Below are positions 56,364-64,000 of a stretch of 64,000 bases of DNA, piece after piece. The DNA is taken from assembly GCA_012800735.1 (NCBI GenBank), contig JAAZIU010000004.1, positions 35,277 to 99,276 of the forward strand, in the 5' to 3' direction. Each line of letters opens with the position of its first letter. Position 1 is the stretch's first letter. The notes under the pieces are model-generated. The model was not told the origin of the DNA and searched no databases. It was given only the letters and a program-made list of their open reading frames with translations. Made by a program: the position numbers and the translations under genes. The DNA comes from Clostridiales bacterium. Lineage in GTDB: Bacteria > Bacillota > Clostridia > Oscillospirales > CAG-272.

Positions 56364-58493
56364 TCAGATACTGAATAAAAGCTCGGAATAGCTTGGTAAC
56401 GGCCAGACATCCCGCGGAGTCAACAGTTCAAGCTCATCGGCAGCTTTTCTTAAAGCTTCCATAGCCGGGAGAACGCTTTTTCGGTAATATTCAGCGCAGT
56501 CGATAGGTTCTTTAATCATCTTCGCGCCGTTTATCGTACGATCAAGCGCGAGAGTTCTGTCATACAGGCTGTCGCTGAGAACAGCTAAATTCTTAGCCAT
56601 TACGGCAGAACTGTCGCTTGTTCCCGATATGCCGACCGCTTTTCTTTGAGCGGCGCCGTAAGCTGCCTCAGTGGTATATCTCATGGCGGCAGGAATAAGC
56701 TGACGATTTGATATATCAAGCATTGTAAGCGCTTCGATATTTACTACTTTTATGTAATTATCAACAAGAATTTCATATCGTGCTCTCAACTCACGTTCGG
56801 TATATATTCGGTGTTTGGTGAATAACCGGATATTCTCCTTGTTCATTATCAGAGGAAGAGCCTCAGGAGTAGACTTGAGATTTAACAACCCTCTGCGATC
56901 AGCTTCTTCTATCCATTCGGTGGAATAATTGTTTCCGTTAAAAATAATGCGGGAATGTGCCTTGTAAACATCACGGATTAAGAAATAAAATTCATCTTCC
57001 GCATTATCGGCTTTTTCAAGTCGTTCGGCATATCTTTCCAATACATCTGCAACTATGGTGTTTAAAATTGTATTGGGACCGGAAATCGAATTTGACGAAC
57101 CGAGCATACGAAATTCAAATTTGTTGCCGGTAAAGGCAAACGGAGAGGTTCTGTTGCGGTCCGAAGTATCTTTTTTGACTTCGGGAAGCGTCCTGACTCC
57201 GGTGTCCATACCGCAGACGTCGAGATGATTATACGGACGTCCGTCAGCTATACATTCGAGTATTTCGGTTATTTCGTCGCCTAAGAATACGGATATAATG
57301 GAAGGAGGAGCTTCGTTGCTGCCGAGGCGATGATCGTTGCCGGCAGAAGCCACAGAAATCCTTAAAAGATCCTGATGCTCATCTACTGCCTCAATTACCG
57401 CTGCTAAAAAAACCAGAAAAACTTTGTTTGAGGAAGGATCAGCGCCTGGATCAAACAGATTGATACCTGTGTTTGTCGATAATGACCAGTTATTGTGCTT
57501 ACCGCTTCCGCTGATGCCAGCAAAAGGCTTTTCGGACAGCAGACACGCCATGTTGTGGCGTTCCGCGACTTTTTTCAGGAATTCCATTGTAAGCTGATTG
57601 TGATCGGTCGCGGCGTTAACGATACCATATATCGGCGCAAGCTCATGCTGAGCCGGAGCAGATTCGTTGTGCTCGGTTTTTGCGTAGATGCCAAGTTTCC
57701 AAAGTTCGCGGTTCAAATCCTGCATGAATTCGATAACCCTGGGACGGATAGCGCCGTAATAATGATCTTCAAGTTCCTGACCCTTAGGCGAACGAGCGCC
57801 GAAAAGGGTTCGACCGCAAAGCTTGAGATCAAGACGCTTTTCATAAAGAGAACGGTCGATAAGAAAATATTCCTGTTCTGCGCCGGCTGTCGGAACGACG
57901 CGGGTAACATCGCTGTAACCGAAAATCTGACAGATTCGTGTTGCAGCGGCGCTGATAACATCCATTGAACGCAGCAGAGGGGTCTTTTTATCAAGCACCT
58001 CTCCGCCAAAAGAGCAGAAAGCCGTCGGAATGCAAAGAGAGTCATCCTTTATAAATGCATAAGAGGTAGGATCCCAGGATGTATAACCGCGGGCTTCAAA
58101 AGTCGCTCGAAGACCGCCCGAGGGGAAGGAAGAGGCGTCCGGCTCGCCTCGGATAAGCTCCTTGCCGGAAAACTCCATAATTATTTTTCCGTTTCCGTAA
58201 GGAGATATAAAGCTCACATGCTTTTCCGCCGTTATTCCCGTCATAGGCTGGAACCAGTGGGTAAAATGTGTTGCTCCGTGCTCGATAGCCCAGTCTCTCA
58301 TTGCGTTTGCCACGACGTTTGCAACGGTAATATCAAGCTCCCGTCCGTCTTCGATAGTCTTATGCAGAGATTTATAAATATCCCGCGGCAGCCTTTCGCG
58401 CATAACATCGTCGTTGAAAACCATGCAGCCGAACATCTGTGGCAGATTTTCAGCTGTTATTTCAATATTATAATCGAACATAAAAAACCTCAT
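56364..58493 (-). CDS. glnN: Glutamine synthetase type III
   Basis: [57 protein letters not shown]; about 700 aa. Confidence 0.96.
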
Positions 58494-58894: not shown

Positions 58895-58960
58895 ATATTA
58901 TGTTTAATAAGCTGTATTGCAAACCTTATAATAAAAGACAGAGTTTTGCGGAGGATTATA

Positions 58961-60157
58961 ATGAACAGGGAAGCATTTTTGATACTTGAAAACGGTCAGG
59001 TATTCAAAGGCAAGCGTATAGGAAGCGATAAAGAAGTCGTGTCAGAAATAGTGTTCAACACATCAATGACGGGTTATCCGCAAGTATTGTCATCTCCTGC
59101 TTATGCAGGGCAGACGGTAGTTATGACCTATCCTCTTATCGGTAATTTCGGAATCTGTTATGACGATATGGAATCGGAAAAACCTTGGCTCGACGCTCTG
59201 ATAATACGCGAGGCTTCAAAAGAACCATCTAATTTCAGATCTGATATTTCTCTTATTGATTTTCTTAATAAATACGATGTTCCGGGAATTGAAGGAATTG
59301 ATACAAGAGCTCTGTCAAAAACCTTGCGTGATAACGGAGTAATGAACTGTATGATAACTTCAGATCCCAATTTTAATATTACAACAGTCACCGAAAAGCT
59401 GAAAGAGCATAAAACCGGTAATCTTGTCGAAAAAGTAACCTGTCGTGAAAGATATATTGTCCCCGGTGTAAAATCACTTGAAGAAAACGGCGTTATGTCC
59501 GGATATGTTGTTTTCGACAGCGCGCGTTATGATGACGGTCAACGCGAAAAAGAGCCGTCTTATATCAAAGAGCTTAACGGCGCAGGGCTTAAAATAGCGC
59601 TTCTTGATTTGGGCGACATATATAATATTATCCGCTCGCTCGCATCACGCGGCTGTGATGTTGAAGTATTTCCCGCTCAAACGGAAGCAAGGGAGATATT
59701 GTCTTCACATCCTAATGGAATAGTTATTTCAAACGGCCCAGGAGACCCAAAAGAATGCCAAGGAATCATAAACGAAATAAAGAAACTTTATGATGCAAAT
59801 GTTCCCATCTTTGGAATTTCTCTCGGTCATCAGCTGATGGCTTTGGCGACCGGAGGTGATACCCGAAAGATGGTACACGGACATCGCGGCGATAATCATC
59901 CGGTAAAAGACCTTTCGAACGGTCGAGTATATATAACAGCGCAGAATCACGGCTATGTCGTCGACACCGAAAGTCTTGACAATGATATTTCAGTTCCGTA
60001 TTTTGTTAATGTTAATGATGGCAGCAACGAAGGAATACAATATATTCATAAAAACATCTTTACGGTTCAGTTCCAGCCGGAATCTTGCTGCGCTATGCAA
60101 GGCGAAGGCTGCATGATTGATAAATTTCTCGATAGGATAACAAGCAGTAAAAACTAA
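58961..60157 (+). CDS. carA: Carbamoyl-phosphate synthase small chain with degenerate glutaminase active site
   Basis: FNTSMTGYPQVLSSPAYAGQ, EGIDTRALSK, ISNGPGDP, HPVKDLSNGRVYITAQNHGY; FGISLGHQ in place of FGICLGHQ and VQFQPES in place of VQxHPEA. Confidence 0.93.
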   Translation: MNREAFLILENGQVFKGKRIGSDKEVVSEIVFNTSMTGYPQVLSSPAYAGQTVVMTYPLIGNFGICYDDMESEKPWLDALIIREASKEPSNFRSDISLIDFLNKYDVPGIEGIDTRALSKTLRDNGVMNCMITSDPNFNITTVTEKLKEHKTGNLVEKVTCRERYIVPGVKSLEENGVMSGYVVFDSARYDDGQREKEPSYIKELNGAGLKIALLDLGDIYNIIRSLASRGCDVEVFPAQTEAREILSSHPNGIVISNGPGDPKECQGIINEIKKLYDANVPIFGISLGHQLMALATGGDTRKMVHGHRGDNHPVKDLSNGRVYITAQNHGYVVDTESLDNDISVPYFVNVNDGSNEGIQYIHKNIFTVQFQPESCCAMQGEGCMIDKFLDRITSSKN

Positions 60158-60218: not shown

Positions 60219-63200
60219 ATGCCAAAGAATCCAGAAATTAAAAAAGTAATGGTTATCGGTTCCGGTCCTATTGTTATCGGACAAGCCGCAGAATTTGACT
60301 ATTCCGGAACCCAAGCCTGCCGTTCGCTAAAGGAAGAGGGTATAGAGGTCTGCCTTGTCAACTCTAATCCGGCAACAATAATGACGGACAGAGAGATAGC
60401 CGATCAGATATATATTGAGCCTCTTAACATAAAAACCCTCGAAAAGATAATTTTAAAAGAAAAGCCTGACAGTTTACTCCCGACTTTAGGCGGACAGGCA
60501 GGACTGAATTTAGGCATCGAACTTGCCGAATCCGGTTTCCTTGCCGCTCATAAAGTACGTCTTTTGGGAACAACTGCTCAGACAATAAAAAAATCAGAAG
60601 ATCGCCTGGCTTTCAAAGAAGCAATGGAAAAGATAGGCGAGCCTTGCGCGCCGTCGTGTGTAGTTGAAAATATCAACGACGGAATTGCATTCGCCGATAC
60701 AATAGGTTATCCGGTGGTACTGCGTCCGGCTTACACATTAGGAGGTACCGGCGGAGGCATAGCGCACGACATCGATGAGTTAAAAGATATTCTCGAAACC
60801 GGACTCAGACTTTCAAGAGTTGGTCAGGTACTTGTTGAACGCTGTATTTCAGGATGGAAAGAAATTGAATACGAGGTTATTCGTGACGCTTCCGGTAATT
60901 GCATAACCGTTTGTAATATGGAAAATATCGACCCCGTCGGTATTCACACAGGCGACAGCGTTGTTGTAGCGCCTTCTCAAACTCTTTCCGATAAAGAACA
61001 TAAAATGCTCCGCGCCGCTGCTTTCAATATAATTAACGAGCTTCAGATTACGGGCGGCTGCAATGTTCAGTTTGCGCTGCATCCGACAAGCTTTGAATAT
61101 TATGTAATAGAGGTAAACCCGCGCGTTTCCCGCTCATCAGCGCTCGCATCCAAAGCAACCGGATATCCCATAGCAAAAGTTACCGCAAAGATAGCCATTG
61201 GGTTTCGTCTTGACGAAATTATTAATGCGGTAACCGGCAAAACATTTGCCAGTTTTGAACCGTCGATCGATTATGTCGCTCTGAAATTCCCGAAATGGCC
61301 TTTTGATAAATTTGTTTATGCTAAGCGCGAGCTTGGAACTCAAATGAAAGCGACCGGCGAAGTAATGGCAATAGCCGATTCATTTGAAATGGCTTTAATG
61401 AAGGCTATTAGAGGCGTTGAAATATCTGTTGACACTTTGAACTTGCCGAAGTTAGCTAAAAAGAACGATGAAGAGCTTCGTTTAATCTGCAAAAACGCGA
61501 CGGATGAAAGACTGTTTGCAGCCTTTGAGCTTATAAAAAGAGGTGTATCAATAGATAAGCTGCACCGGCTGACAATGATTGATAAATGGTTCCTCTTTAA
61601 GCTTAAGAACCTTGCCGAATACGAGAAATCCATAACAAATTCTGAGTTAACAAGTGAAAAATATATAAAAGGGAAACGCCTCGGTTATACCGACTCTGCG
61701 ATTGAAAGAATATCCGGTTGTCGCGTTCCTTTAACTTTGCTGCCCGACTATCGTATGGTAGATACCTGTGCGGCTGAATATGAAGCGCAGACACCTTACT
61801 TCTATGGCAGCTTTAACGAACCGGCCAACGGCGGAATAAATGAAGCGCTCTCCTTTATAAATCGCTCGGATAAAAAGCGCGTTGTTGTTTTAGGCTCAGG
61901 TCCTATCCGCATAGGACAGGGTATTGAATTTGATTACGCGTCTGTTCACTGCGTATGGTCGCTCAAGCAGCTTGGTTATGAAGTTGTTATTATAAATAAC
62001 AACCCCGAAACGGTATCCACCGACTTCGATACCTCCGATCGGCTCTACTTTGAACCGTTATGCCCGGAAGATGTTATGAACATCATCAACATCGAAAAAC
62101 CTGTCGGTGTCGTGGTTGCCTTCGGTGGTCAGACTGCTATCAAACTTACAAAAACTCTTGCCCGAAATAATGTTCGTATTCTCGGTTCCTCCGCTAATTC
62201 GATAGATATGGCGGAAGACAGAGAACGCTTCGACGAGCTGCTTTCACGCCTTGATATCGCTCGCGCAGAAGGTGCTACCGTTATGACATTAGAAGAAGCG
62301 TTGACAGCGGCGAATAAAATTACTTATCCCGTACTCATCCGTCCCTCATATGTTTTAGGCGGTCAGAATATGATAATTGCGTATTCCGATGAAGATGTAA
62401 CGGAATACATGAATATAATTCTGTCACAAAAAATCGACAATCCGGTACTGATTGATAAATATATCAGCGGTATCGAGATTGAGGTTGACGCAATTTACGA
62501 CGGCAAGAACATACTTATACCCGGTATCATGGAACATATCGAGCGTACCGGAATACACAGTGGAGATTCAATAGCCGTATATCCTGCTCCGCATGTAAAT
62601 GACGAAATCGCCGATATGGTTATGAAAGTAACCGAGAAACTCTGCCATGGACTTAATGCGATTGGCCTTGTCAATCTTCAGTATATAATAAAAGACGAAA
62701 AGCTTTACGTTATAGAGGTAAATCCACGCGCGTCGAGGACAGTTCCTTACATCTCAAAGGTAACCGGAGTGCCTATGATAGACCTCGCTGTCAGAGCTTC
62801 CTTCGGTGAAAAACTGGAAGATATGGGCTACGGCACCGGAATTTACAAGATATCGCCATATGTTTGCTGCAAGGTTCCGGTATTCAGCTTTGAAAAACTG
62901 ACTAATGTTGATACCGCACTCGGACCTGAGATGAAATCAACAGGAGAGGTTCTCGGCATCGGTAAGAACCTTCAGGAGGCTTTATTCAAAGGTCTTATTG
63001 CCTCCGGCTCAAAAATGAAAAAAAGCGGCGGAGTCTTCCTGTCGGTAAGAGATCAGGATAAGAAGGAAATAGGCGAAATTGCCGAGAAATTCTATAATTT
63101 AGGTTTTAAACTCTATGCGACAGCCGGAACGGCAGAGCTTATTAATCGCAAAGGAATGGATGTCGAAGTGGTCGGCAAAATCCACGAAAGCGATGTCACA

Positions 63201-64000
63201 CCGGGTTATCATACAGTCATTAATCTTCTTGATAACGGGTCAATAAGCTATGTAATATCTACATCCACCAAAGGCCGAGATCCGGCGCGCGACTCGGTAA
63301 GAATCCGCCGCAAAGCGACTCAACTTGAGATTCCCTGTCTTACTTCCCCCGATACAGCCAATGCAATCGCAGACTCTCTGATGAGCCGTTTCTCTGCGAC
63401 CAATACCGAAATCGTTGACCTTAATTCGATGCGGTCGAAAAAGCAGAAACTGAAATTTACAAAGATGCATGGCTGCGGCAACGACTATATCTATTTCAAC
63501 TGCTTTGAGCAGGATGTAGTAAGCCCCGAGTCTTTAAGTGTTTATTTATCTGACAGACATTTCGGGATAGGCGGCGACGGAGTAGTTCTCATATGCCCAT
63601 CAGATGTTGCAGATGCTAAGATGAGAATGTTTAACTTAGATGGCAGTGAAGGCAAAATGTGCGGCAATGCCATACGATGTGTAGGCAAATACCTTTACGA
63701 CAACAAAATGTCAGACAAAAAGACTCTGAAAATCGAAACCCTTAGCGGAATAAAAACACTAAACCTTTATACAGAAAACGATAAGGTAAGCTCGGTACGG
63801 GTTGATATGGGCAATGCAGAGCTTGACCCTAAAAAAATACCGGTTGCATTAGACGGTGATAAAATTGTCAACCAACCTGTAAAAATATCGGATAAAGAAT
63901 ATAATATAACCTGCGTATCAATGGGAAATCCGCATTGCGTCGTATTCATGGATAATCTGGACGGGCTTGATATAGAAAAGATCGGTCCCACATTCGAATA
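60219..64000 (+). CDS. Carbamoyl-phosphate synthase large chain fused in frame to diaminopimelate epimerase (partial, runs off window)
   Basis: ATG at 60219 after GCGGAGG; CarB motifs (VIGSGPIVIGQAAEFDYSGTQACRSL, LGSGPIRIGQGIEFDYASVH, C-terminal MGS-like domain to about 63.4 kb), then DapF motifs in the same frame (LKFTKMHGCGNDY, FGIGGDGVVLI, MCGNAIRCVGKY, VSMGNPHCVVF); no stop seen at the junction. Confidence 0.9.
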   Translation, partial: MPKNPEIKKVMVIGSGPIVIGQAAEFDYSGTQACRSLKEEGIEVCLVNSNPATIMTDREIADQIYIEPLNIKTLEKIILKEKPDSLLPTLGGQAGLNLGIELAESGFLAAHKVRLLGTTAQTIKKSEDRLAFKEAMEKIGEPCAPSCVVENINDGIAFADTIGYPVVLRPAYTLGGTGGGIAHDIDELKDILETGLRLSRVGQVLVERCISGWKEIEYEVIRDASGNCITVCNMENIDPVGIHTGDSVVVAPSQTLSDKEHKMLRAAAFNIINELQITGGCNVQFALHPTSFEYYVIEVNPRVSRSSALASKATGYPIAKVTAKIAIGFRLDEIINAVTGKTFASFEPSIDYVALKFPKWPFDKFVYAKRELGTQMKATGEVMAIADSFEMALMKAIRGVEISVDTLNLPKLAKKNDEELRLICKNATDERLFAAFELIKRGVSIDKLHRLTMIDKWFLFKLKNLAEYEKSITNSELTSEKYIKGKRLGYTDSAIERISGCRVPLTLLPDYRMVDTCAAEYEAQTPYFYGSFNEPANGGINEALSFINRSDKKRVVVLGSGPIRIGQGIEFDYASVHCVWSLKQLGYEVVIINNNPETVSTDFDTSDRLYFEPLCPEDVMNIINIEKPVGVVVAFGGQTAIKLTKTLARNNVRILGSSANSIDMAEDRERFDELLSRLDIARAEGATVMTLEEALTAANKITYPVLIRPSYVLGGQNMIIAYSDEDVTEYMNIILSQKIDNPVLIDKYISGIEIEVDAIYDGKNILIPGIMEHIERTGIHSGDSIAVYPAPHVNDEIADMVMKVTEKLCHGLNAIGLVNLQYIIKDEKLYVIEVNPRASRTVPYISKVTGVPMIDLAVRASFGEKLEDMGYGTGIYKISPYVCCKVPVFSFEKLTNVDTALGPEMKSTGEVLGIGKNLQEALFKGLIASGSKMKKSGGVFLSVRDQDKKEIGEIAEKFYNLGFKLYATAGTAELINRKGMDVEVVGKIHESDVTPGYHTVINLLDNGSISYVISTSTKGRDPARDSVRIRRKATQLEIPCLTSPDTANAIADSLMSRFSATNTEIVDLNSMRSKKQKLKFTKMHGCGNDYIYFNCFEQDVVSPESLSVYLSDRHFGIGGDGVVLICPSDVADAKMRMFNLDGSEGKMCGNAIRCVGKYLYDNKMSDKKTLKIETLSGIKTLNLYTENDKVSSVRVDMGNAELDPKKIPVALDGDKIVNQPVKISDKEYNITCVSMGNPHCVVFMDNLDGLDIEKIGPTFE

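Follow-up and report, generated by a model that had tools for sequence, protein, structure and literature searches.

In a bacterium of the Clostridiales, the carbamoyl-phosphate synthase (CPS) large subunit CarB and the diaminopimelate (DAP) epimerase DapF are encoded in one reading frame, and the same arrangement recurs widely among Bacillota. The fusion is almost certainly genuine. Our best explanation, to which we give a probability of roughly 0.7, is that of an old fusion protein which is bifunctional in some lineages and carries a non-catalytic DapF domain in others. Two essential-type enzymes from different pathways are thereby joined, and cultured bacteria, including Ruminococcus bromii, are among the carriers. 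The analysis started from a window of 64,000 nucleotides (contig JAAZIU010000004.1, positions 35,277 to 99,276) and from a sequence-only reading of it, which knew of no characterised CarB-DapF fusion; we found no account of one in the 5.39 million open-access PMC papers searched.

An ORF scan showed 1,260 codons free of stops from the ATG at 60219 to the end of the window (Table 1). The window ends where contig C33 (99,276 bp) ends, so that the lack of a stop is a matter of assembly and has no biological meaning; in both of the nearest genomes, which are congeners, the ORF runs to completion at 1,354 amino acids, as against the roughly 1,350 foreseen by the sequence-only reading. In profile searches, residues 1-1056 matched PRK05294 (1446 bits) and TIGR01369 (1423 bits; cut-off 1027 bits), both over their cut-offs, and Pfam recognized CPSase_L_D1, D2 and D3 as well as MGS, at 951-1042. 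With its full-length TIGR01369 match, its MGS domain and carA adjoining on the upstream side, this part is a predicted CPS large subunit; it is the single CarB of the genome, 93% identical in amino acid sequence to that of congener L008 and 84% to that of the other nearest genome. Residues 1079-1259 matched DapF (TIGR00652, 177 bits; cut-off 114.65 bits), though the match is cut off by the contig end, and the DapF of L009, from the same genus, reached 274 bits. As the sequence-only reading had proposed, the carB frame crosses MGS and a linker into DapF without a stop, DapF lies directly behind the allosteric domain, the Met codon at 63465 is in the carB frame, and the usual DapF start region reads CTG-AAA-TTT at 63450. 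Like E. coli CarB (TIGR01369; structures 1bxr and 1jdb), the fusion has a full-length CarB with both synthetase halves and an MGS domain, its residues 1-1071 aligning to 1-1068 of the E. coli protein; unlike E. coli CarB, which ends at residue 1073, it has approximately 280 extra residues, the DapF part, behind MGS. We note that a divergent gene upstream of carA (56364-58493, minus strand) encodes a type III glutamine synthetase (GSIII_N), glutamine being the nitrogen donor of CPS.

Table 1. Features of the carA-carB::dapF region in the window and of the putative dapF continuation
Feature	Position	Strand	Remarks
carA, carbamoyl-phosphate synthase small subunit	58946..60157	+	PRK12838 454.5 bits, TIGR01368 399 bits
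CarB part, two synthetase halves and MGS allosteric domain	60219..63386	+	residues 1-1056
CarB tail and linker of about 20 residues (RFSATNTEIVDLNSMRSKKQK), junction	63387..63449	+	stop-free
DapF part, first ~20 codons (LKFTKMHGCGNDYIYFNCFE)	63450..63509	+	switch to foreign sequence at ~63494-63510
Remaining DapF up to contig end	63510..64000	+	homologous, most likely foreign (chimeric contig end)
Putative own dapF continuation	contig C35 (G000:C35), bases 2-775 (locus L179, 1-775)		orthologous DapF, congener synteny

The search for proteins combining both domains in related Clostridia, suggested by the sequence-only reading, revealed that the fusion is widespread in Bacillota. Stop-free MGS-DapF frames were present in at least 135 of the 394 genomes of the window's order (counted by hand), the fusion was found in at least 55 of 391 genomes of the class, and 17 genomes from the other classes of the phylum also carry it; loci were classified by phmmer, and L070 was excluded, as a run of N at its junction made the fusion look unfused. 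Carriers include many gut and environmental Bacillota, with four single-contig genomes (G268, G598, G962 and G986) and the cultured Ruminococcus bromii ATCC 27255, Pseudoruminococcus massiliensis, Ruminococcus sp. zg-924 and Sporotomaculum syntrophicum FB. Because resolution in the DapF tree is low (7 changes, with few branches starred), fusion events were counted on the CarB tree. On this tree, which was calculated by a quick method and whose root was not inferred, fused and unfused states take 3 changes, versus a mean of about 18 when shuffled, which fits a single gain and two losses of the fusion. Unfused relatives share the same CarB tail (ending, for example, in ...VDINTIR or ...VDINTL before the stop), and in L188 carB and dapF are separate but adjacent, in tandem; the fusion point thus lies right behind the CarB tail. 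The old fusion would most likely have arisen when neighbouring carB and dapF genes, whose prior adjacency we infer, were joined through loss of the stop codon that followed the CarB tail VDINxMR.

One genome, G024, carries a highly divergent fused CarB-DapF, a tandem pair of unfused carB and dapF, and a third carB (L181 = G024:C7, L182 = G024:C15). In L134, from a record titled Candidatus Endomicrobium (Elusimicrobiota), a standalone dapF falls inside a Bacillota fused clade, through transfer or misbinning.

Two cysteines are the key catalytic residues in DapF (PMC12039745), and structures 2q9h and 2q9j are those of its C73S and C217S mutants. Fused copies resemble DapF (TIGR00652; 2otn, 1bwz, 9mro) in fold and in DAP-binding residues, and the intact ones, including L008 and L009 from the window's genus, in both cysteines. 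Unlike standalone DapFs, all 25 of which have both cysteines (0/25 deficient), they are joined to CarB, and about half of the distinct copies are without Cys73 and/or Cys217: among 214 distinct fused DapFs, 113 are intact and 100 lack at least one catalytic cysteine (hereafter deficient), a share that is not a census, the sampling being tilted to the window's order. The picture of a pyrimidine and a lysine enzyme in one chain thus does not fit the family as a whole. Loss is mostly at Cys73, which is replaced by Ala (53 copies), Gly (25), Ser (12), Phe (6) or Thr (1). The DAP-binding residues are retained in copies without catalytic cysteines, for which binding of DAP is putative. N64, E208 and G218 are kept in 100% of the deficient copies, H159, R209, N190 and T219 in 98-99%, G74, N75 and N157 in 96-97%, and N11 in 81%. 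The cysteine state needs at least 8 changes on the tree, and all members of one clade, 55 sampled genomes, are deficient yet have retained the domain. The dN/dS values for deficient pairs (0.014-0.16, several dS being near saturation) are similar to those of intact copies, indicating that deficient DapFs remain under purifying selection. The clearest natural pseudo-epimerases are those of S. syntrophicum FB and relatives, where both cysteines are replaced (S/A); loci of this type are L096 (2815-6852), L109 and G1033/G986/G962 (f198).

A fusion with the Cys73Ala replacement scored 274 bits against TIGR00652 (cut-off 114.65) and passes as a DapF equivalog. Since cysteine-less forms exceed this curated cut-off, automatic annotation would credit an epimerase to genomes that are possibly without one, and would distort reconstructions of the lysine and peptidoglycan pathways. 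The fused domains gave 109-113 bits with NF038284 (bifunctional diaminopimelate epimerase/glutamate racemase), well short of the cut-off of 350; that family is similar in being a DapF-family protein called bifunctional, and differs in that a single domain has the two activities.

Intact fusions are often arranged as carA - carB::dapF - (pyrG) - dapL. Among loci whose downstream flank is 600 nt or longer, dapL is found downstream in 48 of the 87 with an intact fusion and in none of the 40 with a deficient one; these are raw counts that ignore shared ancestry, and a short flank may hide some dapL genes. In R. bromii (L092 1644-9718), pyrimidine and DAP genes are interspersed in the order carA - carB::dapF - pyrG - dapL, with overlaps of 4 nt. 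A deficient fusion occurs in 53 of 61 genomes with a standalone DapF versus 25 of 45 without (Fisher 6e-4). The association between standalone DapF and cysteine loss disappeared in phylogenetically independent pairs, and is a difference between clades; a backup enzyme as driver of cysteine loss, in spite of the raw value, is unsupported. Ddh was likewise rejected as the cause, as it showed no association (Fisher 0.66; weak matches, with E of 1e-11 to 1e-19, were not scored as Ddh). Eight genomes with a deficient fusion lack both a standalone DapF and a strong Ddh match, which might be put down to incomplete assemblies, to a different wall chemistry or to some residual activity. In G036 (99% complete), the fused DapF is intact and both alternatives, standalone DapF and Ddh, are missing; the fused domain is thus probably the working epimerase there.

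In the window's genus, the protein would be a CPS large subunit, partner of CarA, with an active DAP epimerase tethered to its allosteric MGS domain by a short linker. Such a bifunctional CPS/epimerase is to be expected from the presence of both cysteines and the lack of an internal Shine-Dalgarno sequence in this genus, and we consider it probable. Where the intact state occurs elsewhere, the operon with dapL would allow pyrimidine and DAP synthesis to be expressed together. Synthesis of UDP-MurNAc-pentapeptide requires both UTP-derived sugars and meso-DAP, and a pairing of CPS with DapF therefore makes metabolic sense.

The cysteine-less domains are probably dead as epimerases yet functional. 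An attached DapF of this kind may be a sensor or a structural part; most likely, the non-catalytic domain would contribute to the regulation or assembly of CPS, with DAP binding as a plausible means. Two observations favour such a role: DapF sits directly behind MGS, and E. coli DapF(C73&217A), which has no epimerase activity, still binds and activates RppH (PMC4227774). The DapF-RppH pair (6d13; PMC4227774) is comparable in that DapF acts on another enzyme independently of its epimerase activity, and different in that the proteins are separate and the partner is another one; an effect on CPS is a hypothesis here. The scenario would be that CPS captured a biosynthetic enzyme which, in several lineages, became a pseudo-epimerase sensing diaminopimelate and tuning CPS, so that pyrimidine (UDP-sugar) supply is matched to that of cell-wall precursors. 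Control of CPS in response to DAP is proposed tentatively, from the conservation of the binding residues. In E. coli CPS, UMP acts at the MGS domain. The two UMP-site residues that were mapped (E. coli numbering) are present in 206 of 208 (T974) and 158 of 208 (K954) fused proteins. If the non-catalytic domain does regulate CPS, a new input for effectors would be added to an enzyme that is a textbook case of allostery, and the family, as a natural series whose members range from intact to dead, would allow the change from enzyme to regulatory domain to be studied.

Plain operon merging could also account for the fusion: expression would be coupled, the enzymes would work independently without cross-talk, and cysteine-less copies would be relics on their way to being lost. 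Fusions between operon neighbours are common, intact copies do neighbour dapL and pyrG, and the model of a deficient form has a flexible linker. AlphaFold predicted MGS-linker-DapF with a pLDDT of 91 and a pTM of 0.80; for the deficient form it retained the DapF fold (TM 0.92 to 9mro), with a pTM of 0.67 and a pLDDT below 50 at residues 122-130, and this flexibility speaks against DapF being rigidly docked in that form. Against operon merging, the 100 deficient copies, from many families, maintain full length, frame and binding residues, their dN/dS is well under 1, and the wholly deficient clade of 55 sampled genomes has retained the domain. We thus regard operon merging without further consequence as rather unlikely, and favour the reading in which the cysteine-less domain has kept a function.

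A further question is whether DapF is also, or only, made as a separate product, through internal initiation or proteolysis. Starts of carB and of standalone dapF have median Shine-Dalgarno duplex energies of -8.25 and -8.5, respectively. In the window, no Shine-Dalgarno precedes the in-frame ATG at 63429 (+0.7), and internal start candidates throughout the genus (L007, L008, L009) gave values of +0.4 to +0.7, which bears out the sequence-only reading on this point; the near-invariant Met of the NxMR motif is also without one in nearly all fusions. A single polypeptide is thus expected in the window's genus. Elsewhere, 36 of 102 intact fusions have a strong in-frame start (duplex energy of -6 or stronger) just ahead of DapF, around residues -4/-3 in the fused loci, as compared to only 4 of 79 deficient fusions; in R. 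bromii the value is -8.5. A separate DapF product is therefore possible in those intact fusions, and some other lineages may make free DapF in addition. As a general account, two products are unlikely, given the lack of such a start in the window's genus and its rarity in deficient fusions.

The cysteine-less domain could instead have acquired a different catalytic activity, an idea compatible with its conserved binding site and maintained selection, and with the fold that the deficient DapF has in common with 6r76; trans-3-hydroxyproline dehydratases, which are of related fold, differ at a racemase cysteine. The commonest replacements, Ala and Gly, offer no chemistry, however, and Ser and Thr are rare, which makes this improbable.

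The 3' end of the window deserves separate treatment. In a base-by-base comparison with L008, identity stays at approximately 82% along carB, across the junction and into the first codons of dapF, and then falls abruptly to approximately 60%, the drop being located at about 63,494-63,510. Contig C35 of the same assembly starts at exactly the codon where identity breaks. Its DapF is 94.6% identical to that of L008, versus 65.6% for the window tail, and groups with L008 in the DapF tree (99, starred), where the tail is placed outside the genus. The neighbouring ORFs on C35 (Crp-like regulator, lipoprotein, thioredoxin-like protein, oxidoreductase) are those of the congener, and the 1097 codons ahead of C35 plus the 257 within it give 1,354, the same length as in the congeners. 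Just ahead of the break, a stretch of up to 38 nt (63471-63508) is exactly common to other genera, and is thus long enough to produce a graph misjoin. On this comparison, the final ~490 bp are very probably misassembled, forming a chimeric contig end; the fusion junction is upstream of the break and unaffected. The motifs FGIGGDGVVLI, MCGNAIRC and MGNPHCVVF cited in the sequence-only reading are indeed DapF motifs, but they are located in the foreign tail; equivalents are found in C35, where MCGNGIRC and ACGTGAC represent both cysteine motifs. When 394 genomes of the order were searched at the DNA level, the best match to the tail reached 72% identity, and the donor was not identified.

A true recombinant, arising through gene conversion, transfer or strain variation, would explain why the frame is maintained across the switch, why the DapF motifs are intact and why the GC and GC3 of the tail fall inside the carB range. 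It is nevertheless very unlikely, as the orthologous DapF with congener synteny starts at the same codon on C35, the genome has a single carB, and a sequence common to other genera immediately before the break is what a graph misjoin would be expected to leave. Assembly artefact as the origin of the fusion itself, which the chimeric contig end might bring to mind, was rejected as extremely improbable: the break lies at least about 45 nt downstream of the junction, which is collinear with two independently assembled congeners and recurs in many genomes, single-contig ones included.
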